Shown here: positions 32,261-62,887 of the stretch, in pieces
Numbering within the stretch: the first letter of the stretch is position 1
How the letters are laid out: every line of letters starts with the position of its first letter
DNA from: Syntrophomonas sp.
GTDB taxonomy: Bacteria > Bacillota > Syntrophomonadia > Syntrophomonadales > Syntrophomonadaceae
Length of the DNA stretch: 64,000 nucleotides
Direction: 5' to 3'
Assembly (NCBI GenBank): GCA_016841245.1
Contig: JAENZN010000002.1
Location: 134,843-198,842, forward strand
Position numbers and translations under genes: made by a program
Notes under the pieces: generated by a model
The model's input: the letters and a program-made list of their open reading frames with translations, nothing else
Told to the model about the DNA's origin: nothing
The model's database searches: none

Positions 32261-32509
32261 TTCTTCCATCCCCCTTTGTCTATTATAAAATGCTTTACTA
32301 ATAAATAGTATATCCGCAAATATTTGAATATTTATTCTATAATATAGTTAATATTTATACATAAGGAAAGCAGGGGAGGGTCGAGCAGGATGAATATAAG
32401 CGGAAGTTCTGCCATAACCGCCTGGCTTTTGTGAACGGCAATGGAGGGATTATGAGTACCCAGTCCAGCCTGATATTAGGGAGGGAAAGAAATGGTAGAA
32501 GATAATGGT

Positions 32510-33110
32510 AATAAATGGTATAAAAGAGGCCGCACGACACTCAAAATCTATTGCGCAAGAAGCCCTTTTCGACCGGTCAGTGGCTCCCGAACCCGCGTGG
32601 CTGCTGGGTTCTTGATAAATGAAAGTCTCTAGGGTTTTTAATATCCCTCCACCATATCCCTCCAAATTCCAAAGATGGATTATGAAGAGGGAAATTGAAA
32701 TAAATTTGCCGATGTGGCGGAATTGGCAGACGCACCGCACTCAAAATCCAGTGCGCGAAAGCCCATTTTTGATCGGTCGGCGGCTCCCGAACCCGCGTGG
32801 TTGCTGGGTTCTTGATAATCGAATAGTCTTTATGGTTTTTAATATCCCTCCACCATATCCCTCCAAATTCCAGAGACGGATTAGGGAGAGGGAAATTGAA
32901 ATATAACTTGCCGATGTGGCGGAATTGGCAGACGCACCGCACTCAAAATCGTGTGCGCGAAAACCCCTTTTCGACCGGTTGGCGGCTCTCAAACCAGCGT
33001 GGTTGCTGGGTTCTTGATAATTGAATATCCTCTATGATTTTTAATATCCCTCCACCATATCCCTCCAAATTCCAAAAGCGGATTAGGGAGAGGGAATTTG
33101 AAATAAACTT
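32510..33110 (+). repeat. Three tandem ~201-bp units carrying tRNA-Leu 5' halves
   Basis: The motif TCAAAAT of the tRNA-Leu anticodon loop recurs at 32541, 32741, 32943 and, in the intact gene, 33144: periods of 200, 202 and 201. Units beginning at 32708 and 32910 repeat the first ~40 bases of the intact tRNA exactly, and the unit near 32525 is decayed. Each then diverges from the tRNA just after the anticodon loop into a conserved ~90-base tail (GGTTGCTGGGTTCTTGAT core) and a ~70-base CCCTCC-rich stretch that also stands upstream of the intact tRNA. Next to an integrase this looks like stacked attachment-site scars. Confidence 0.85.
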
Positions 33111-33196
33111 GCCGATGTGGCGGAATTGGCAGACGCACCGCACTCAAAATGCGGCGGATAACCTCCATGCCGGTTCGACTCCGGCCATCGGCACCA
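33111..33196 (+). tRNA. tRNA-Leu (anticodon CAA)
   Basis: 86 bases with an encoded CCA. The 7-bp acceptor stem is GCCGATG/CATCGGC and the anticodon stem is CCGCA/TGCGG. Loop CTCAAAA gives anticodon CAA at 33145-33147. A long variable arm of class II type and a T-arm GCCGG-TTCGACT-CCGGC complete the fold. It is the probable integration target: the integrase gene of the conjugative element follows 170 bases downstream. Confidence 0.95.
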
Positions 33197-33246: not shown

Positions 33247-33366
33247 CTTTTCTGGCGAAACCCTTCTGTTTGCCGCCCGAATACCGTCACATGAACCATT
33301 TTAGCGCATATTGGCAATGCTCTCAGCTCCCTTTCCACCTGGCATTCCGCCCGTTTTGGAGGGATG

Positions 33367-34842
33367 TCAGGAGGGATATACGCCGATGATGGCGTTGGCC
33401 GAAGCAACCTTGGAGCTGAAATCCAGGTGGGTGTAGATATTCGAGGTTGTGGAAATATCACTGTGCCCCAACCATTCCTGGATCTCTTTCAGGCTGACGC
33501 CGTTGGCGTACAACAAACTGGCGCAGCTATGGCGGGTATCGTGGAAGCGGATTTTTTTGAGGCCGTGGTTTTTCAGCGTGAGCGAGAAATTCTGAGTGAT
33601 ATATCCCGGCTTGATCCTTTCTCCCAGCTCATTCACGTAGATGTAGCCAAGATGCTCCCGGCAATAGGCTTTTCCGCATACTTTTTGATCGCGCTCCTGC
33701 TCTGCCTTGAGCCGCAGGAGAAGCTTTTCAAAAGGCTCTACCAGCGGCAGGGTGCGGTGGCTCGACTTGGTTTTGGTGCGGTCCTTTTCCACGATGATGG
33801 CTTTTCCGTCCACCCTTACCTCGGTTACGGTGTGCTTGATGGTCAGCGTCTTTTTTTTGAAGTCAATCGCGTTCCATTTCAGCCCTACGATCTCACTGCG
33901 GCGCAGTCCGTAAAACGCGCCTAAAATAACGGCCAACTCTATCGGTCTATTTTTCACAACGGCGAACAAGGCTTCCAATTCGCCGGCATCGTAAATACTG
34001 CCTACAAATTTCCCGGTTTTAGGCCGCTCGATCCGATCGGCGGGGTTAAAGTTGATCAGTCCCACTTTGAAAGCGTACTGCAATGCTTTACGAATATTGG
34101 CATGGCGATGGATCACCGTGTTGGCACTCAGCCCTTTTTCGTTAAGCTCATACTGATAATAATCCTGAATGTGCTTTGGTGTTATATCCTTCAAGGTAAG
34201 CTTGAATTCCTTAAAATAGGGAATGATGCGGCTCTTAATGGTAACAACATATGATGCGTAGGTAGTCATTTCAACATTGTGTTTCATCATCTCCAGCCAT
34301 TCCAGCAGGAAGTCGGTAAACAGTATTTGCACCTCACCGGAGATCGGGTTTACTTTATCAGCCGGATTTTCCCGGATCAGTTCAAGCTCCACGGCGTATT
34401 CCAAGGCTTCTTTGATGACCTCGTGATATTGGAGCAGGGCATTGTTTAAGGCGCGATTTCCTGTTCTCTCATACTGATAGTAGCCTTCTATATCCTCCGG
34501 CTTTATTTTCGCTACCGTAACGTCGGTATTCTTAAAGTAAGGGATGATGAAATTTTTTGTATCGTATAAGTAGAGGGCGTAGGTATCAGCATCCACTCTG
34601 CCGATAACATTTTGCAGCCATTTTGTTAGGAAGCTTGCAAACAAAGCGTTCTTGTCAATCATTGCCGTGTCGGGATTAAACTCTTTCCTGGTTTTCAAAA
34701 GCAGTGCTTCAGCACGTTTTTTATTCCCCTTGATGGGAAGTTCCGTACTGACAGACTTGGTTTGGCGCTTTCCGTTCATATCCTTATAGGTGAGGATCAT
34801 GTGGAAAAAGCCGTTTTTTTCTCGCAGATGTCCTGTTACCAT
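33367..34842 (-). CDS. Tyrosine integrase with duplicated core-binding domain
   Basis: 491 residues, about 100 longer than usual Tn916-like integrases. The N-terminal arm-binding region (about 1-60) resembles Tn916-type integrases. Two similar core-binding units follow: about 67-165 (LFASFLTKWL, FIIPYFKN, YYQYERTGN, ENPADKVNP) and about 174-273 (LFTDFLLEWL, RIIPYFKE, YYQYELNEK, FNPADRIERP). The catalytic domain has Arg in YGLRRSEIVGLKW, HDTRH, LGHSDISTTSNIYTH and the nucleophile Tyr. It should integrate the element at tRNA-Leu. It is transcribed towards the tRNA. Confidence 0.95.
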   Translation of the reverse strand: MVTGHLREKNGFFHMILTYKDMNGKRQTKSVSTELPIKGNKKRAEALLLKTRKEFNPDTAMIDKNALFASFLTKWLQNVIGRVDADTYALYLYDTKNFIIPYFKNTDVTVAKIKPEDIEGYYQYERTGNRALNNALLQYHEVIKEALEYAVELELIRENPADKVNPISGEVQILFTDFLLEWLEMMKHNVEMTTYASYVVTIKSRIIPYFKEFKLTLKDITPKHIQDYYQYELNEKGLSANTVIHRHANIRKALQYAFKVGLINFNPADRIERPKTGKFVGSIYDAGELEALFAVVKNRPIELAVILGAFYGLRRSEIVGLKWNAIDFKKKTLTIKHTVTEVRVDGKAIIVEKDRTKTKSSHRTLPLVEPFEKLLLRLKAEQERDQKVCGKAYCREHLGYIYVNELGERIKPGYITQNFSLTLKNHGLKKIRFHDTRHSCASLLYANGVSLKEIQEWLGHSDISTTSNIYTHLDFSSKVASANAIIGVYPS

Positions 34843-50299: not shown

Positions 50300-52297
50300 T
50301 TACCATGCCGCCGTATAATTGGAGAAATACAGCAGGGGGTCAACCCTGGTACCGCCGACATAAACCTCAAAATGCAGATGCGGGCCTGTGGACAATCCCG
50401 TGCTGCCCACGAAGCCAATGGTCTGACCCTGCGTCACCGTCTGCCCGACAGCGGCGCTCATTTGGCTCATGTGGGCGTAAAGGGTATTATTGCCGTTGCC
50501 GTGATCGATGATGATATAGTTTCCATAGCCGCCCGCATCGTAAGCGGCGGTTGTGACCACGCCGTCTGCGGCAGCCAGGATCGCCGTTCCGTATCCCGCA
50601 CCGATGTCGATACCGGTATGGGTTTTGTAAATGCCCAGAATGGGATGCAGCCTGGTGCCAAAAAAGGAAGTTACATAGTCACTGGCGGTGCTGGGCCAGA
50701 TATAAAAGCCCTCCGCAATAACCTCCGTCCCGTCCCCCAGGTGTCCCAACCCCGTGATCAGGGCCAGATAATACTGGTCGTATGCGCCGCTCAGAAGTTC
50801 CTCCAGCAGTTCGTTTTGGTTGTCGTTAAAGTCGTAGATTTCTGCCTGTTCCCCTGCGGTTCGCTGGGTGATGATGATATGCAGAATGCGCTCGTACCAC
50901 GTTCCCCCGTCGCTGTCGGTATGCTTCACGGTTTCTATCCAGTGGTCGATTTCTGTCATATCCCAAAACACTTCCCGGATAAGGTCAACACGGGTCTGGT
51001 CAATGGTGAAAACATCCATGCCCTCGTCGGTCATGGCGGTTTTGACGGCGAACACGGCCAGAATGTCTATCCAGATATTGCCCCGGCTGCCTCCGGTGCC
51101 GACGTACTGAACATCCAGCCTATCCCATGTGTTGTCGTTCTTGATTTCCTCTATCCGCTGATTGTATTCCTCATTCACTTCCTGTATCACCACGGAGACG
51201 GGTGTTACCTCCGCATCCTTGTTCTCATCGGAAAAGAGAAGGCCAAAGGGAGACGCAAACAAGGCAGCTACGGCGATAATAATCAGGAACAGGGCAAGAA
51301 CGGCCCCGCCTGAGCCCACCAGTGCGATCAGGCTCTTGGTCAGTACAGCGGCGGCTTTAACGGTCAATTCCGCCATATGAATCGTGAATTTGGCGGTGGC
51401 CCTTGCTGTCTGCGCTGCCCGTTGCACCGCTTTAGCGGTGGCCTGCGCGGTTTTGGGGGCGGCTTTAGCCGCCGTCTGAGAGGTTTTTGCAGCGGTCTTG
51501 GCGGTTTGCCCGGAGATCTTGACCGATTTTCGCGCCGTTTTAATGGTGCCCTTGGTAGTTTCCTTGACCGCTTTGCTGCCGGACCGGGCGGATGGTCGGA
51601 AGGTGCGAGTGCCGCCAATGCCGGTTGGGAAGGTATGCCGTGTTGTATTTCCGCCTGATCTGAACACAGGACTTGGGATGGCCTGGGCGGTTTTGGCTTC
51701 CGCCGGCTGAATTTCTCTGTTTAGGGTAAACCGCGCCTTTGCCCGGCTCTGAACAAACCGCCGTTTCGCCAATTCGTTGGGCTTGGCCAGGGTATATTTT
51801 CGTTTGCGTCTTTCCTTCGCTTTGAATGGGGCGACTTTTCGCTGGGCCGATTGTTTGGCCTGTGCGGGCGCGGGGTACTGCTCTGGTAATTTTCCGGCTT
51901 TGGGCGAGGCAGCTTGCTGTCCTTGAGGGGAATCGGTGCTCCGGCGCGTTTGGGGACTGCCTGGTTCGGATAGGGAGGACGTCTGCTCCGTAGCATGGCC
52001 GTCGCCAGCGTCGGCGTAATGGCTGTCCGCAGGAGGATTGCGGCGTTCCTTGATTTTTTGAACCGCCTTTTGGCTCTGACGCCCCATCGTATGAACAACT
52101 TCATTGCCGACCGTTTCCACGCTTTCCTTTGCCTTATCCTCGGCATACGCCAGATAGCTGTCGTGTTCCGGTTCCTGCGTCCGCTCAGCCTGGTCCTTGG
52201 TCCGGATAAAAGCGTTTTTCGCCCTGCGGGTCACATCGAGGCTTTTGTCCAGCGTTTTGATATCCTTGACGGTGGCTTTGGTTTTGATGTCTTTCAA
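50300..52297 (-). CDS. Conjugation-module M23 peptidase (cell-wall hydrolase)
   Basis: 665 residues. The start is TTG 52297, nine bases after GGAAGGAGG; TTG 52306 overlaps that site. N-terminus basic (KDIKTKATVKDIKT), then a long Ala/Lys/Thr/Arg repeat stretch (about 250-320: KTAAKTSQTAAKAAPKTA), one membrane helix (VLALFLIIIAVAALFA) and an extracellular half. The C-terminal M23 domain has HTGIDIG, YAHMS and GPHLHFEV, the metal ligands of LytM-type endopeptidases. In the Tn1549 family this is the peptidoglycan-opening enzyme of the mating channel. It is the last large gene of the transfer operon. Confidence 0.88.
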   Translation of the reverse strand: MKDIKTKATVKDIKTLDKSLDVTRRAKNAFIRTKDQAERTQEPEHDSYLAYAEDKAKESVETVGNEVVHTMGRQSQKAVQKIKERRNPPADSHYADAGDGHATEQTSSLSEPGSPQTRRSTDSPQGQQAASPKAGKLPEQYPAPAQAKQSAQRKVAPFKAKERRKRKYTLAKPNELAKRRFVQSRAKARFTLNREIQPAEAKTAQAIPSPVFRSGGNTTRHTFPTGIGGTRTFRPSARSGSKAVKETTKGTIKTARKSVKISGQTAKTAAKTSQTAAKAAPKTAQATAKAVQRAAQTARATAKFTIHMAELTVKAAAVLTKSLIALVGSGGAVLALFLIIIAVAALFASPFGLLFSDENKDAEVTPVSVVIQEVNEEYNQRIEEIKNDNTWDRLDVQYVGTGGSRGNIWIDILAVFAVKTAMTDEGMDVFTIDQTRVDLIREVFWDMTEIDHWIETVKHTDSDGGTWYERILHIIITQRTAGEQAEIYDFNDNQNELLEELLSGAYDQYYLALITGLGHLGDGTEVIAEGFYIWPSTASDYVTSFFGTRLHPILGIYKTHTGIDIGAGYGTAILAAADGVVTTAAYDAGGYGNYIIIDHGNGNNTLYAHMSQMSAAVGQTVTQGQTIGFVGSTGLSTGPHLHFEVYVGGTRVDPLLYFSNYTAAW

Positions 52298-52327
52298 CGT
52301 GTCCAACCTCCTTCCAGGGTTTACTGA

Positions 52328-52811: not shown

Positions 52812-55148
52812 TCAGCCCTGGGCCTGTTCGCCCGGCTTGGTGGTCATCAGGTTATAGAGCTTGGTATTGCGCGGGAATTGGTCGGTAAAGGGCACCAGGG
52901 AACTGCCCACCTTGATAAGCCCGTTGCCCGCGTCCACGTTGGTAATGTAAGAAAGCTGGAGATCGGAAATGTTCAGGAGCTTGGCAAGCTCTATTCTGTC
53001 CGTGGAAGCCTGGTTGAGCATAACGATGAATTCGCTGTTAGCTAGCATGGTCCGGGCCGTATGCGATTGTAACAGGTCGTCTACGTTTTGGGTGATCCCT
53101 GTGCAAAATGCGCCGTACTTACGCACCCGCTTCCAGAGGGTAAACAGGAAGTTGGCGCTGTACTCATGCTGGAACAGGAGATATATTTCATCAATAATGA
53201 TGAAGGTGTTTTTTCCCTTTGCCCGGTTTTGGGTGATGCGATTCAGGATGCTGTCCAATACGACAAGCATCCCGATGGGAAGAAGCTGCTTGCCTAAATC
53301 CAGAATGTCGTAGCAGACCAGGCGGCTGGTCACGTCCACGTTGGTGAGCTTGGCAAAGGTGTTCAGGCTGCCGGAGGTAAAAAGCTCGATAGCCAGTGCG
53401 ATTTCCTGAGCCTCCGGCTCCGCTTGCTTCAGTAACTCGGCATGGAAGTCCTGCAAGGTGGGTGTTTTTCCCTTAAAATTGCTTTGCAGGTATTTTCGAT
53501 AGACATTGGCGGTGCAGCGGTCGATCAGGGATTTCTGCTTTGCCCCCAGGTTCTGACCGCCGATAAGCTGCTCGCACAGGGATAGGACAAATTCCGATTT
53601 CAAGATGACCGGGTTTGCGCCATCGCCGTAATCCTTGCTCATATCCATTGCATTGATGTGGTTTGGAGAGGTCGCGGAAATATGGATGATCTCACCGCCC
53701 ATCGCTTTGACAAGGGAGGAATACTCCCTTTCCGGATCAATCAGTATAATGTCGTCGTCGCTGGAAAGAATCTGATTGACAATTTCCCGCTTGGCCGTGA
53801 ACGATTTGCCGGAACCGGAAACACCGAGGATGAAGCTGTTGCCGTTTAGCAAATGCTTGCGATTGGCAATGATCATGTTCTTTGAGATGACATTCTGACC
53901 GTAGTAAATGCCGCCGCTATGGGCGATTTCCTGCGCCCGGAAAGGGATGAACACTGCCGTGCTTTCGGTGGTTAGGGTCCGGATGGCGTGAATTTTGCGC
54001 AGGCCGTAGGGCAGCGCCGTGTTCAGGCCGTCCATCTGCTGCCAGGTCAGGGGTGAAAACTGGCACAAGTGCTTTCTGGCCGTGGTCAGCAAAATTTCCG
54101 TGTCGCTGTCAAGCTGCTCCTTGCTGTCCGCGATATGCACCATCGTCAAAACGGCGAACATCATGCGCTGGTCGCGGGTGGTCAGATCGTCCAGAAATTC
54201 TTTGCTCTCTTTTCTTTGCTGTTCCATGTCGTAAGGAACAACAGCGGAAAAGTTATTATTTTGATTCTGTCTTCGTTGCCAGTTGGTGATGTTGGTTTCC
54301 ACGCCCAGCAGCCGGTTTTCCACCTCCCGCACGGCCTCGTCGGTGGGGATGGGGATGATGTCCATAGATAGCATTATGCTGCGGTTTAAGTCGCACAGCT
54401 CGGTCACCATGCTGTCCTTGATGAAGCTGGCGTACTCTCGCAGAAAAATGACTCGTCCAAACCTGTTGCCCATGCGGAAATAGTCACGCTCAAACTCCAA
54501 GGTGTCGGGGCAGATATAGTCCTTGAAGTCGTGTCCCTTGCGCATGGTTTCGGAGAGGTCGAAACGGAAAAACGTTTCCTCACCAGCCCGGAAAAAGTCG
54601 TGCAGGATTCTCAGGCGGTCAGTGGCATCCAGTTCCACGCATTTAGAGCCCAGGTGGGAAAAGTGGGTGATCAGGTCCGTGCCGACGCGGGAAAAGTAGT
54701 TTCGCGCCTCCTCGATGCTTTTTTTCGCTACCGACACGGTGACGTATTTGTCCTGCACGATGCTGTTCGCGCCGGTGGCCTTCTCCAAAAGCATTCGGTT
54801 GTATTCCCTGCGGTATTCGTCCAGGGAGTCCTCCCGGAGGGGGATCAGAATGGAGTTTTCAAAGTCCGTCTTGTTCAGGCGGCGGTTGTTGATGGTGATT
54901 TTGGTGGTCGCGCCGCTGTCAAAGGAATTCAAAAGCTCTGAATAGGAGAGAAACATGGCTTCCTTGTCCTCCTTGGAGGCCACGGCGTAATTGATGTCCT
55001 CAAAGCGAAAGGTCCGGGAAAACTTATTGTCTACCTGAAAAATCCCCTCCGGCCAGATGGCGCGGATGGGGATGGCCTGTTGTACGCCCTTGGGGACAAC
55101 AAACCTTTCCTTGTCCTGCTTCATGATTTTTTGCAGGGTTTTAATCAT
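52812..55148 (-). CDS. VirB4-like conjugation ATPase
   Basis: 778 residues. An N-terminal CagE/TraE-like region is followed by the RecA-fold ATPase: Walker A ILGVSGSGKSFTAK near 455, Walker B region FIIIDEIYLLF near 650, and the TQNVDDLL motif. VirB4 ATPases power pilus/channel assembly of the type IV secretion system at the membrane. Its start overlaps the PrgI gene by eight bases. The GC-rich codon use matches the other transfer genes and differs from the AT-rich host. Confidence 0.94.
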   Translation of the reverse strand: MIKTLQKIMKQDKERFVVPKGVQQAIPIRAIWPEGIFQVDNKFSRTFRFEDINYAVASKEDKEAMFLSYSELLNSFDSGATTKITINNRRLNKTDFENSILIPLREDSLDEYRREYNRMLLEKATGANSIVQDKYVTVSVAKKSIEEARNYFSRVGTDLITHFSHLGSKCVELDATDRLRILHDFFRAGEETFFRFDLSETMRKGHDFKDYICPDTLEFERDYFRMGNRFGRVIFLREYASFIKDSMVTELCDLNRSIMLSMDIIPIPTDEAVREVENRLLGVETNITNWQRRQNQNNNFSAVVPYDMEQQRKESKEFLDDLTTRDQRMMFAVLTMVHIADSKEQLDSDTEILLTTARKHLCQFSPLTWQQMDGLNTALPYGLRKIHAIRTLTTESTAVFIPFRAQEIAHSGGIYYGQNVISKNMIIANRKHLLNGNSFILGVSGSGKSFTAKREIVNQILSSDDDIILIDPEREYSSLVKAMGGEIIHISATSPNHINAMDMSKDYGDGANPVILKSEFVLSLCEQLIGGQNLGAKQKSLIDRCTANVYRKYLQSNFKGKTPTLQDFHAELLKQAEPEAQEIALAIELFTSGSLNTFAKLTNVDVTSRLVCYDILDLGKQLLPIGMLVVLDSILNRITQNRAKGKNTFIIIDEIYLLFQHEYSANFLFTLWKRVRKYGAFCTGITQNVDDLLQSHTARTMLANSEFIVMLNQASTDRIELAKLLNISDLQLSYITNVDAGNGLIKVGSSLVPFTDQFPRNTKLYNLMTTKPGEQAQG

Positions 55149-57869: not shown

Positions 57870-59633
57870 TTATGATGGGGACAGGCTTTCGAGTTCTTCC
57901 TCGGAGAGAAGCTCGTAATCGCCTCCTTCCTTTAAAACCACGGCTTTCCAGTCCAGGGCGTATTCCGTGGTGCCGTGCCGGAAGGGTTGCCCGCCGCCGT
58001 CAACCATCAGCTTTAAATTCGGGTGTTTGAGAATATCGTACTTGTCGTCCATGACAGCGTGCTCGCCCCGGATGAACAGCAGGGCGTAGCGGTTGTCCAG
58101 CATCCGCACCTCGTCGGGGGTCAAAAGCTCCCGCCCCGACAACTGAAAATTGGTGGAGTAGCTGCCGTTCCTGCCCTTGCTCTGACCGTAGGTGTTCAGG
58201 TCGATGGTTTCCTTGCCTAAAAGCTCGGACACATACTTGTGGGTGCTTTGCTCATTGCCGCCCAGATACAAAAACTCGTCGCAGTTGCCGACGATGGACT
58301 CCCAGGTGTCTTTGAACAATGCTTTGAGCTGGGCCAGGTTTTGCAGGATGATGGAGACGCTGACCTCCCGGCTGCGCATGGTGGAAAGGAGCTTGTCGAA
58401 CTCATCCGGCAGGGCGACGTTAGAAAATTCGTCCATCACGAAATGGACGTGAAGGGGCAGCCTGCCGCCGTAAACATGGTCGGCCAGGTAGTAAAGCTGC
58501 TGGAAAAGCTGGGTGTATAGCATTCCGACGATGAAATTAAAGCTGCTGTCGTTGTCGGGTATTACGGCAAAGAGGGCCGTCTTTTTCTCCCCGATGGCAG
58601 GCAACGCCATTTCATCCACCGTGGTGATTCCCGCGATGGTGGACAGGTTGAACTTTTCCAGCCGGACGCCCAGGCTGATGAGAATGCTTTTGGCCGTCTT
58701 ACCCGCCGCCAGCTTGAAGATGTTGTACTGCTTGACCGCCAGATGCTCCGGTTCCCGCATGGCCAGCCGCTCAAACAGCTCGTCCAGGGGGCTTTGGTAG
58801 GTTTCGTCCTCCTCCCGCACCTCGGCGGCGGCGATCATCTCCATGACCATCGGAAAGTTTCGTTCATCCCCCGGCGCTTTGTAGAGCAGGTAGAGAATCA
58901 GCGCTTCCAATAGCGCGGTTTCGGAGCGTTCCCAAAAGGGGTCGTTGGTATTGCTGCCCTTGGGCGTGGTGTTGCGGATCAGGTTGGTGACCAGTTTAAG
59001 CACGTCCTTGTCGTCCTGCAAATAAGTAAAGGGATTGTAGCAGTGGGACAGGTGCAGGTTAATTAAATCCAGCACTTTGATGTCATATCCTTTTGCCTTC
59101 AGCAGGTTTCCCGTATCCCTTAGAATTTCTCCCTTGGGGTCGAGGATCACAAAAGAGGTGTTGGTCTGCATGACGTTGGGTTTCGCGTAAAACCTGGTCT
59201 TGCCGGAGCCGGAGCCGCCCACCACCAGGACATTCAGGTTGCGCCGGTGCTTCCTGCCGTCCAGCCCGATGCGGACGTTCTGGGTCAGGATTTTGTTCTT
59301 ATGCGCATTCTTGTCCCGGTATTTCTTATCGACAGCCGCCGCGCCGCCCCAGCGGGCGCTACCGTGTTCCTCCCGGTGCCGGTAATTGCGCTTGGTGGAC
59401 AGGTATATCCCGATACCCATGCCGTAGGCGGCGATAAAGAGCAAAACGCACTTGAGCGAATTGCCTACCCATTGGATATGAAACGGATCGTTCAGCGCCG
59501 CCGTGAGGTTTTCCAGGATTTCGGGCAGTCCGCCGGAAAGGGAGGGGGCGACCAGCAACGCCGCCCACACCACCGGAATTAAAAAAACCGCCCAGAGGAT
59601 GAGATTGCTCTTGGCGGTTTCAGCGCGTTTCAT
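57870..59633 (-). CDS. VirD4-like type IV coupling protein
   Basis: 587 residues. Two N-terminal helices (LILWAVFLIPVVWAALLV; CVLLFIAAYGMGIGIYL) precede the ATPase: Walker A VVGGSGSGKTRFYAKP near 140, DPKGEIL, FVMDEFSNVA (Walker B) and the TraG motif GNCDEFLYLGGNE. It brings the relaxase-DNA complex to the channel. It overlaps the upstream 65-codon frame by 14 bases. GC-rich as the rest of the module. Confidence 0.94.
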   Translation of the reverse strand: MKRAETAKSNLILWAVFLIPVVWAALLVAPSLSGGLPEILENLTAALNDPFHIQWVGNSLKCVLLFIAAYGMGIGIYLSTKRNYRHREEHGSARWGGAAAVDKKYRDKNAHKNKILTQNVRIGLDGRKHRRNLNVLVVGGSGSGKTRFYAKPNVMQTNTSFVILDPKGEILRDTGNLLKAKGYDIKVLDLINLHLSHCYNPFTYLQDDKDVLKLVTNLIRNTTPKGSNTNDPFWERSETALLEALILYLLYKAPGDERNFPMVMEMIAAAEVREEDETYQSPLDELFERLAMREPEHLAVKQYNIFKLAAGKTAKSILISLGVRLEKFNLSTIAGITTVDEMALPAIGEKKTALFAVIPDNDSSFNFIVGMLYTQLFQQLYYLADHVYGGRLPLHVHFVMDEFSNVALPDEFDKLLSTMRSREVSVSIILQNLAQLKALFKDTWESIVGNCDEFLYLGGNEQSTHKYVSELLGKETIDLNTYGQSKGRNGSYSTNFQLSGRELLTPDEVRMLDNRYALLFIRGEHAVMDDKYDILKHPNLKLMVDGGGQPFRHGTTEYALDWKAVVLKEGGDYELLSEEELESLSPS

Positions 59634-60732: not shown

Positions 60733-61545
60733 TTACCTCTCTTTCGGTTTTTTAGATTTGGATTTTGTTTTCGGTTGGCCCGATTTGGCGGGCTGGCCGG
60801 TGGATTTGGATTGCTCCTTGGATTGTTCGCGCTTGGATTCCGTCTGCTCCCTGTGGGCATCCCGGATTTCCTTCAGTTCCTGCCGGACGGATTTTCTCTC
60901 CGGCTCACTCGTACCCCCGGCGGCTTTCCCGCTGCGCTCGTAAGTAGGCTCGGACGGAGGGGATTTCTCCGCCTTCGCCGCCGTAGGGTCCGTCGTGGGG
61001 TTGGGGTTGTCGGTCCGCTCCTGGTCCGACTCCGGCTGCTCGGGCTTGGCCAGAAGTTCGTCCAAAAAATCTTCCGCGCTTTTTTCTGCGGGCGTTTCCT
61101 TTTCGGCGGGCGCTTTTTCCTCCTGCCTGGCGGCTTTGGATTTTTGGATTTCACTCTTGATGCTGGCGGTGTCCACAGTGGCCAGCTTGAAGCGTTCTAC
61201 AATCCGGTTGATCTTGGATGCATCCTCGGCCCGCACCATGATGTCGCACATGCCGTCCGTGTCCTTTTTGTCACGGAGGGCGCAATAGAGGATGCCGTAG
61301 CGTTTGGCTTCCTGGGTGAATTTTTGCAAGTCCTCGTTCCTGACCGCAAAGACTTTCAGCTCCTTGCCGCTGCGCAACAGCCCTTCCAGCCGGATTTTCC
61401 CCCTGGTTTTCTTTTGGTCTGTGAGAACGGCATACAAATAGGTGGCGAGGTTTTTGGCCCCCTCGCCGGAGATTTTAGCCATGACCTCGATCCCTTTAAG
61501 AGTCATGTTGACGACTTGGTCCGCGGCGGCGGCTTCGCTGTTCAT
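60733..61545 (-). CDS. PcfB-family (DUF3801) protein
   Basis: 270 residues from ATG 61545, after AGGAGG. The first 130 residues are the PcfB core (VNMTLKGIEVMAKISGEGAKNLATYLYAVL; FAVRNEDLQKFTQEAKRYGILYCAL; DIMVRAEDASKINRIVERF). The rest is a low-complexity charged tail rich in Lys, Glu, Pro and Ser. PcfB is an accessory of the relaxosome and coupling protein in Gram-positive transfer systems. It overlaps the end of the relaxase by 50 bases. Confidence 0.88.
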   Translation of the reverse strand: MNSEAAAADQVVNMTLKGIEVMAKISGEGAKNLATYLYAVLTDQKKTRGKIRLEGLLRSGKELKVFAVRNEDLQKFTQEAKRYGILYCALRDKKDTDGMCDIMVRAEDASKINRIVERFKLATVDTASIKSEIQKSKAARQEEKAPAEKETPAEKSAEDFLDELLAKPEQPESDQERTDNPNPTTDPTAAKAEKSPPSEPTYERSGKAAGGTSEPERKSVRQELKEIRDAHREQTESKREQSKEQSKSTGQPAKSGQPKTKSKSKKPKER

Positions 61546-62887
61546 AGGCTTTTGCCTCCTTTCGCTGTTGGATTTCTTCCTGTTTGATCCGGGACAGCTT
61601 TTTCTGCATTTCCCCGGAACGGGACAGGATACCCGTGCAGAGCTTCACCTCCTTGCGAAGCTGGCTGATTTGCCCGGTCAGCCCGGCGATTTGTTCCTTG
61701 CAGGCCGTCACCTGCTCCTCGTCCCCGCACCGGCGGATGCGGTTGTAAAGGGACTTGCGCGCGGCGGACAGGGCGCTCATTTCCCGCTCCACGGTTGACC
61801 GGTAGGCGACAAGCTGTTCCTTGCCGGAAATATGGTTTTTGCAGAGCAGCTTGGTCTGCGCGGTGAGTTCATTCAAATAGCGGAGGTCCTCGCGCAATAA
61901 AAAATGCGTCCTTTTGCTGGACGCGCGGGGCTTGAGCAGAATGCCCATTTTATAGAGGTAGTGGAAATATAACGCTTGCAGGCCGGTTATTTTTTTCGTT
62001 GTCTTGAGGGAGCCTTTGAAGGTACAGCGTTTTCGCTTCGGTTCCGGCAAGGGGGGCGGTCGCTTGGGTATGCGGTTTCGCAGGATGCACTGCTTGATGG
62101 CTTCCTCGGTGTAATCGTCGCCCAGGGTTTTCAGCCGGACAAATCGCTCCTTGCCTAAAGGACGTACCGCCAGGTGTTTCACGCCGGTTTTGACCTCATA
62201 GCCCTCTTTGCGCAGGGCGGCGATAAATTGCGTGAAGGTCATGGCGTCGTCAATGGCTTTGTCCACGTCCTCCCGGATTAGGCCCCGCCAGGTGGGTTTG
62301 CCTTCCTGCTCAGCTTTCCATTCAGCGTAGTGCTTGGATTTGCCGCGCTGCGGGTTTTCAATGACAGACAGGGCTTGTTCCCGGCACAGCCGGTCGGAGG
62401 TCTTGCGCATGAGAGCGTAGGTAGCGTTGTTGTCGTAATACCGCTTACCATCCCGAAAGGACACGGAATTCAGGACAAAATGGTTATGAAGATGCTGCTT
62501 GTCCAGGTGGGTGGAAACCACCACCTCAAAGCGGTCGCCCCATAGCTCTTTCGCCAGCTTCACGCCAATGGCGTGGGCAGTTTCGGGAGTGGCCTCTCCC
62601 GGCGCAAAGGCTTGGTAGCCGTGAAAGGCCAGGATGCCGTCCTGCTTCTGATATTGCCGCTTTGTCCGAACCATCTGCTCGCAGGCGGTAGCCGGATCGC
62701 AGTTGATGCCTGTTACATAGAACTGCTTTTCAGTTTTGACATCCTGCTGGGTATAATCCAGCACCTTGCGCAGGCCTTGAAAGACGGGACTGGTAAAATC
62801 GGGGTTTTCGGTTTTTTCGGGGTTGGCGGCGTAGTCGATTACCCGGTCAAGGCGGTCGGTTACGTCCCATATTGCTGTAGTTGCCAT
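61496..62887 (-). CDS. Relaxase (MobP/VirD2-like)
   Basis: 463 residues. The N-terminus MATTAIWDVTDRLDRVIDYAANPEKT and FYVTGINCDPATACEQM, then VVVSTHLDKQHLHNHFVLNSVSF, the three-histidine metal motif of MOBP relaxases. The C-terminal region is basic and coiled. The enzyme nicks oriT and stays bound to the 5' end. It is in the order MobC, DUF3848-like, relaxase, PcfB. Confidence 0.95.
   Translation of the reverse strand: MATTAIWDVTDRLDRVIDYAANPEKTENPDFTSPVFQGLRKVLDYTQQDVKTEKQFYVTGINCDPATACEQMVRTKRQYQKQDGILAFHGYQAFAPGEATPETAHAIGVKLAKELWGDRFEVVVSTHLDKQHLHNHFVLNSVSFRDGKRYYDNNATYALMRKTSDRLCREQALSVIENPQRGKSKHYAEWKAEQEGKPTWRGLIREDVDKAIDDAMTFTQFIAALRKEGYEVKTGVKHLAVRPLGKERFVRLKTLGDDYTEEAIKQCILRNRIPKRPPPLPEPKRKRCTFKGSLKTTKKITGLQALYFHYLYKMGILLKPRASSKRTHFLLREDLRYLNELTAQTKLLCKNHISGKEQLVAYRSTVEREMSALSAARKSLYNRIRRCGDEEQVTACKEQIAGLTGQISQLRKEVKLCTGILSRSGEMQKKLSRIKQEEIQQRKEAKAYEQRSRRRGPSRQHDS

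Follow-up and report, generated by a model that had tools for sequence, protein, structure and literature searches.

We find that a short tandem array in front of a tRNA-Leu(CAA) gene of Syntrophomonas sp. is very probably the nested left-end record of three successive integrations of conjugative elements (ICEs), a reading to which we give a probability of about 0.9. Three is probably also the number of large conjugative elements that were inserted one inside another. The window, that is the whole stretch of DNA that was analysed, has 64,000 nucleotides and corresponds to positions 134843-198842 of contig C16 in a 3.9 Mb genome (G000). Coordinates without a contig name refer to the window.

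Structure of the array

Three repeat units stand upstream of the intact tRNA-Leu(CAA), with start-to-start distances of 200, 202 and 201 bp (Table 1). When the whole genome was searched with the tRNA, 32708-32747 and 32910-32949 each matched tRNA positions 1-40 with 100% identity. Both of these 5' halves break directly after ACTCAAAAT, a 9-bp core made up of the anticodon loop of tRNA-Leu and the pair that closes it, and the crossover mapped here agrees with the original prediction of a break just past the anticodon loop. That prediction had described three tandem units of tRNA halves, one of them decayed. The three repeat units and the two exact halves hold up well, but the sequence taken for a decayed half (about 32510-32547) is host coding sequence and aligns with the first codons of a gene for a ChsH2-like Zn-ribbon/OB-fold protein. 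The array is thus made of two tRNA halves and one host-gene junction. The motif CACTCAAAAT has 4 copies in the window compared to 0.2 expected by chance, and in an Rfam scan the tRNA alone passed the threshold.

Elements that use tRNA genes as sites canonically rebuild the split tRNA with a matching 3' half. At attL1, attL2 and attL3 we instead see the core and then a tail, with the intact tRNA about 161 bp further inward and wholly borne by the element. The repeat ATCCCTCC is found twice in each tail, as an inverted pair at the end of the integrase gene, and three times at the right end of the third element (ICE3), where the copies are followed by GAGGGACTCAAAAT and adjoin a tRNA 3' half.

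Table 1. Features of the array and of ICE3, in window coordinates.
Feature	Position	Strand	Evidence or partner
Host side of attL1: first 19 codons of the ChsH2-like Zn-ribbon/OB-fold gene, cut at ACTCAAAAT	32492..32547	+	Uninterrupted orthologues in G003 (L106) and G001 (L107)
attL1 core ACTCAAAAT (ICE1 in host gene, secondary site)	32539..32547	+	Partner attR1, C56:32814-32822
ICE1 left-end tail; ATCCCTCC repeats at 32643 and 32656	32548..32707	+	
5' half of ICE1 tRNA-Leu(CAA); cut by ICE2 at core 32739-32747 (attL2)	32708..32747	+	100% over tRNA positions 1-40
ICE2 left-end tail; ATCCCTCC repeats at 32844 and 32857	32748..32909	+	
5' half of ICE2 tRNA-Leu(CAA); cut by ICE3 at core 32941-32949 (attL3)	32910..32949	+	3' half C16:239744-239798 in attR3
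ICE3 left-end tail; ATCCCTCC repeats at 33046 and 33059	32950..33110	+	
Complete tRNA-Leu(CAA) of ICE3, with core 33142-33150 inside as a potential attB	33111..33196	+	ARAGORN; Rfam tRNA 58.1 bits
Inverted ATCCCTCC pair at integrase end, candidate arm-type sites (putative binding)	33358..33377	-	
ICE3 tyrosine integrase, 491 aa	33367..34842	-	Pfam Phage_integrase 1.2e-26
M23-peptidase protein, conjugation module	50300..52306	-	
VirB4/TraG-type ATPase of type IV secretion system	52812..55148	-	Pfam P-loop_TraG
Type IV coupling protein	57870..59633	-	Pfam T4SS-DNA_transf 5.7e-58
MobA/VirD2-type relaxase	61496..62887	-	Pfam Relaxase 1.9e-39

The elements and their far ends

The array adjoins a tyrosine integrase gene, which is followed by VirB4, coupling protein and relaxase genes, so the integrase and conjugative element named in the original prediction are both there. 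An integrase, a relaxase, a coupling protein and a type IV secretion ATPase lie inside one element whose two ends are defined, attL at 32941-32949 and attR at C16:239744-239752. This makes ICE3 71,961 bp long from core to core (about 72 kb), with the array at its left end. The original prediction had also proposed looking for an attR with the 3' tRNA half at the far end of the element. The whole-genome search with the tRNA returned one further 3' half, at C16:239744-239798 (98%), which is beyond the window. Read through attR3, the order is the ICE right end, the core, the tRNA 3' half, a spacer that is the same as the one after the intact tRNA, and then a second integrase (88% identical). We conclude from the 3' half and the second integrase behind attR3 that ICE3 sits within the tRNA gene of ICE2; at attR3 the outer element's attR leads into the left end of the element that owns the inner site.

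The right part of ICE3 (L126, L108; C16:198800-239700) holds a gene for a protein with an ABC-3C-type C-terminal domain, AAA genes, two C5-cytosine methylases, a 2076-aa helicase/Eco57I-like protein and a PIN_8 protein. This set of genes is possibly defence cargo.

For the three ICEs, two integrases and two attRs (attR1 and attR3) have been located. We searched the genome for attR2, expected between ICE2 and ICE1, and for the ICE1 integrase and found neither; contigs end where these are expected. The remnant of ICE1 on contig C56 is decayed and includes a deletion fusion of VirB4 and the M23 gene (L124:11560-13290). Its VirB4 parts are 98-99% identical to those of ICE3, yet the left-end tails are 84% alike, and this high VirB4 identity suggests that modules have been exchanged between ICEs resident in the same cell. 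A fragment of a transposase-like gene, judged by eye, is located 77 bp inside the right end of ICE1 (L123:1260-1500, contig C56).

Host insertion site of the first element

ICE1 entered a protein-coding gene at a core-like sequence. The ChsH2-like gene is uninterrupted and without array units in G001 and G003, two genomes of the same genus, which supplies the empty site that the original prediction had called for. An empty-site relative that already has the array, named there as the refuting case, was sought among the genomes of the genus and not found (G001, G003). In G000 the remainder of the gene lies on contig C56, where it immediately follows an ICE right end and core (C56:32814), and this order of right end, core and rest of the host gene defines attR1. 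Joining window positions 32492-32547 to the C56 flank gives an ORF of 126 aa, of which 110 residues are identical to G003. A pattern search found the native tRNA-Leu(CAA) intact elsewhere in G000 (C6:18721-18805, L228), and the ChsH2-like gene was therefore a secondary site.

The native gene at C6 has the ACTCAAAAT core and is unoccupied, despite three ICE junctions of the same specificity in the genome. The idea that the genus had lost its native tRNA-Leu(CAA) and relies on the ICE copy was dropped with the discovery of this intact gene. Beside the insertion site, a thiolase-like gene (window approximately 32360-32440) has an internal deletion of about 1.07 kb here; its intact comparator in G003 has 406 aa and there is an orthologue in G001.

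The same layout in other genomes

In three genomes of other genera, G023 (L009), G012 (L010) and G038 (L007), the 5' half of a native tRNA-Leu is followed by the tail, a complete ICE tRNA-Leu(CAA) and the integrase gene. The native half in all three differs from the ICE tRNA, and G038 has two units. The native tRNA-Leu(CAA) is cut in G023 and G012 and intact in G002 and G004, where it lies beside a gene which we take from its sequence to be polA. Given that the same tail runs from native halves into a complete tRNA and integrase, the ICE carries the tail and a whole tRNA, not a 3' half. We considered presenting G038 as a fully resolved nest and rejected this, as the second 3' fragment there, on contig C19, belongs to a decayed relic of ICE type whose right end is not clear.

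To see how common the layout is, genome contigs were scanned with the integrase and the best 80 loci were kept, all Bacillota as far as titles and ranks show. The counts among these best 80 loci are judged on the integrase and the tRNA and not on the whole ICE. A tRNA-Leu or tRNA-Ser lies beside the integrase in 73 of them; this is mostly Leu(CAA), and Leu(TAA), Leu(CAG) and Ser(CGA) also occur. An extra 5' half 130-260 bp upstream is present at 52 of the 73 loci in a strict scan. When the loci are read so as to include diverged halves (L132, L151, L178, L180) and secondary sites (L133, L187), the whole-tRNA layout is seen at about 58/73. Stacked units occur at seven of the 73 (L131, L154, L155, L170, L175, L201, L204); Faecalibacterium sp. 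I4-1-79 (L201) and the cultured Syntrophomonas wolfei subsp. methylbutyratica are examples of organisms with a stack. At L131, in Desulfotruncus arcticus, the inner half has the ACTCAAAAT variant and the adjoining intact tRNA has TCTCAAAAA, and since these are different variants two different elements must be stacked there.

A minority of related loci have no extra half and are scattered over the integrase tree. Parsimony of its presence or absence on this tree gives 14 changes compared to 13.8 after shuffling, which is a scatter at the tips with no clustering. The integrases of L157 and L169 are nearly identical and sit at one and the same cluster of host tRNA genes. An extra 5' half is present at one of these loci, and at the other the tRNA-Leu is directly beside a tRNA-Val. 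This pair of sequences suggests that a unit may collapse or that integration may take place through the tRNA's own core. In two further comparisons (L164 to L165, and L135 to L134 and L136) the spacer (95-99% identity) and the integrase are the same, the whole tRNA is different and there is no extra half.

Weighing other explanations

The regular spacing of 200-202 bp and the tandem order of the units could be produced by slippage or unequal crossing-over, through which a 201-bp unit from one integration is locally duplicated. Comparison of the tails speaks against this. Within the array they are 84.4-86.3% identical, whereas they reach up to 90.0-91.9% in other genera: the best match elsewhere is 90.0% for the tail of unit 1 (Desulfotruncus alcoholivorax) and 91.9% for that of unit 3 (D. 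arcticus), and that of unit 2 has 91.3% to the outer unit of Syntrophomonas wolfei subsp. methylbutyratica. Duplication also does not account for a first unit that starts in host coding sequence, for the genomes of the same genus without units, or for the second integrase after attR3, which stacking predicts. The divergence of the tails, the empty site and the presence of a second integrase led us to reject local slippage, and we consider duplication highly improbable. The original prediction had offered two further readings, a series of scars left by recombination at the anticodon loop beside an integrase, and accretion of mini-elements. Mini-elements of about 200 bp, each carrying its own upstream region and a 5' half, would have the form of a single unit taken alone. 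Elsewhere, though, the same tail is the left end of an integrase-bearing element beside a native half, and the right ends that go with these tails are those of large elements, one 72 kb away and one on C56. Each unit represents an ICE left end into which the following ICE has inserted, and we regard accreted mini-elements as the least probable of the explanations considered. The reading as a series of scars is correct.

A different kind of explanation is that the halves have been retained because they are transcribed as functional, tRNA-half-like RNAs. Such a role could be read from the exact match of two halves over 40 nt, set against a difference of about 14% between their tails, and from the region upstream of the tRNA that the halves retain. 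The exactness can be explained in another way, as the ICE tRNAs are conserved between elements (that of ICE3 is 99-100% identical to those of G012, G023 and G038) and each half was part of a gene until it was cut; the differences between the tails reflect their origin in different elements. The substitute stem (GCAC/GTGC) proposed in the original prediction is not maintained over 52 related junctions, where halves pair with their own tails no better than with shuffled ones (mean helix 4.19 for the true pairs and 4.06 for the shuffled; 216 of 1000 shuffles did as well). Scans for promoters and terminators give no more than chance, and the folding z-scores are ordinary (-1.7 and -0.6). Functional half-RNAs seem very unlikely to us, if slightly less so than duplication, and successive nested integration is the reading that we follow below.

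Proposed mechanism

The model of nested integration is built from the core, the tails, the whole tRNA, attL1 to attL3, attR1, attR3, the second integrase, the empty site and the layout common in Bacillota, all of which are read from sequence. The tyrosine integrase would recombine a target core ACTCAAAAT with the identical core in attP, with strand exchange probably within the 7-nt loop and the arms of the integrase presumably binding to the ATCCCTCC repeats. The split tRNA is not restored, and the core is followed by the tail of about 161 bp with its arm-type repeats, a complete tRNA-Leu(CAA) and the integrase gene. As the whole ICE tRNA contains the core it could serve as a fresh attB for the next ICE. 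On this model ICE1 went into the host ChsH2-like gene, ICE2 into the tRNA of ICE1 and ICE3 into the tRNA of ICE2, each step leaving a 5' half plus tail and the tRNA of the last ICE staying intact. The ICE tRNA is presumably transcribed, and it may make up for the loss of the host tRNA when an element hits the native gene. A promoter scan upstream of the ICE tRNA gave no recognisable promoter.

Relation to known systems

Complementation of a broken tRNA by a carried spare is known from temperate phages, mainly those of Actinobacteria. The closest known system is this tRNA-dependent lysogeny, in which the phage Fionnbharth integrates at tRNA-Lys-TTT and Gaia at tRNA-Leu-CAA, the latter with a core of 8 bp (Guerrero-Bustamante & Hatfull 2024, PMC10865867). 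The likeness extends to the tyrosine integrase, to a short core in a tRNA gene (about 8-17 bp in the phages and 9 bp here), to secondary attB sites in protein-coding genes, to a junction at which the tRNA is not reconstructed, and to a complete tRNA of the cut isotype on the element (PMC10865867). Unlike in the phages, the carrier here is a conjugative element of Bacillota with the tRNA directly between attP and the integrase gene, the element tRNA is itself used as attB, which leads to nesting, and the native tRNA is intact in this genome. No phage record that we found covers 80% or more of the integrase, and with conjugation genes present we describe the element as working like the phage system and do not class it as lysogeny.

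Other systems share individual parts of this picture. By description, the ICEMh1/ICEPmu1-like ICEs of Pasteurellaceae are likewise found in the anticodon loop of a UUG-reading tRNA-Leu, with an 11-bp direct repeat, and ICEMh1 comes with one full-length tRNA and fragments, including a third, disrupted copy upstream of the full-length one that is mentioned without explanation (PMC6861422). The authors of that study explain the full-length copy by conservation of the T-loop side of attL and propose neither whole-gene cargo nor nesting, and ICEMh1 uses a XerC/D-like pair of recombinases (PMC6861422). ICE/CIME accretion also gives tandem integrated elements with common att sites, whose members are often decayed, but the shared att there is the end of the host target gene (PMC5704250), whereas here the new site is the complete tRNA gene from the previous element and the elements are one inside another. 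ICEBs1 has a tRNA-Leu primary site and also uses core-like sequences in protein-coding genes; its secondary insertions come mainly from strains without attB (PMC3715440), while here the secondary insertion became the base of a stack in a genome whose native tRNA-Leu(CAA) is intact. In the open-access papers searched we found no description of a conjugative element that nests by way of the whole tRNA gene it carries. To judge by these papers, this nesting in a conjugative element is new, and the spare-tRNA principle, accretion and secondary sites are each known separately.

Significance

These findings indicate that a spare tRNA is a common design of this integrase family of conjugative elements across Bacillota. 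The spare is also the next target, which leads to nesting and to a count of past invasions that can be read from the sequence. The model explains orphan tRNA fragments beside integrases and predicts nested element ends. A broader and more tentative proposal, whose chances we put a little below even, is that in this ICE lineage of Bacillota the element's own whole tRNA gene is a self-renewing attachment site, which would both offset the damage that integration causes and provide a landing pad for later relatives. The half-tRNAs would then count integrations, and the double core may allow a switch between whole-gene replacement and canonical restoration through a 3' half, as L157 and L169 might illustrate. 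The balance between target damage, host dependence and the entry of relatives becomes directly testable.
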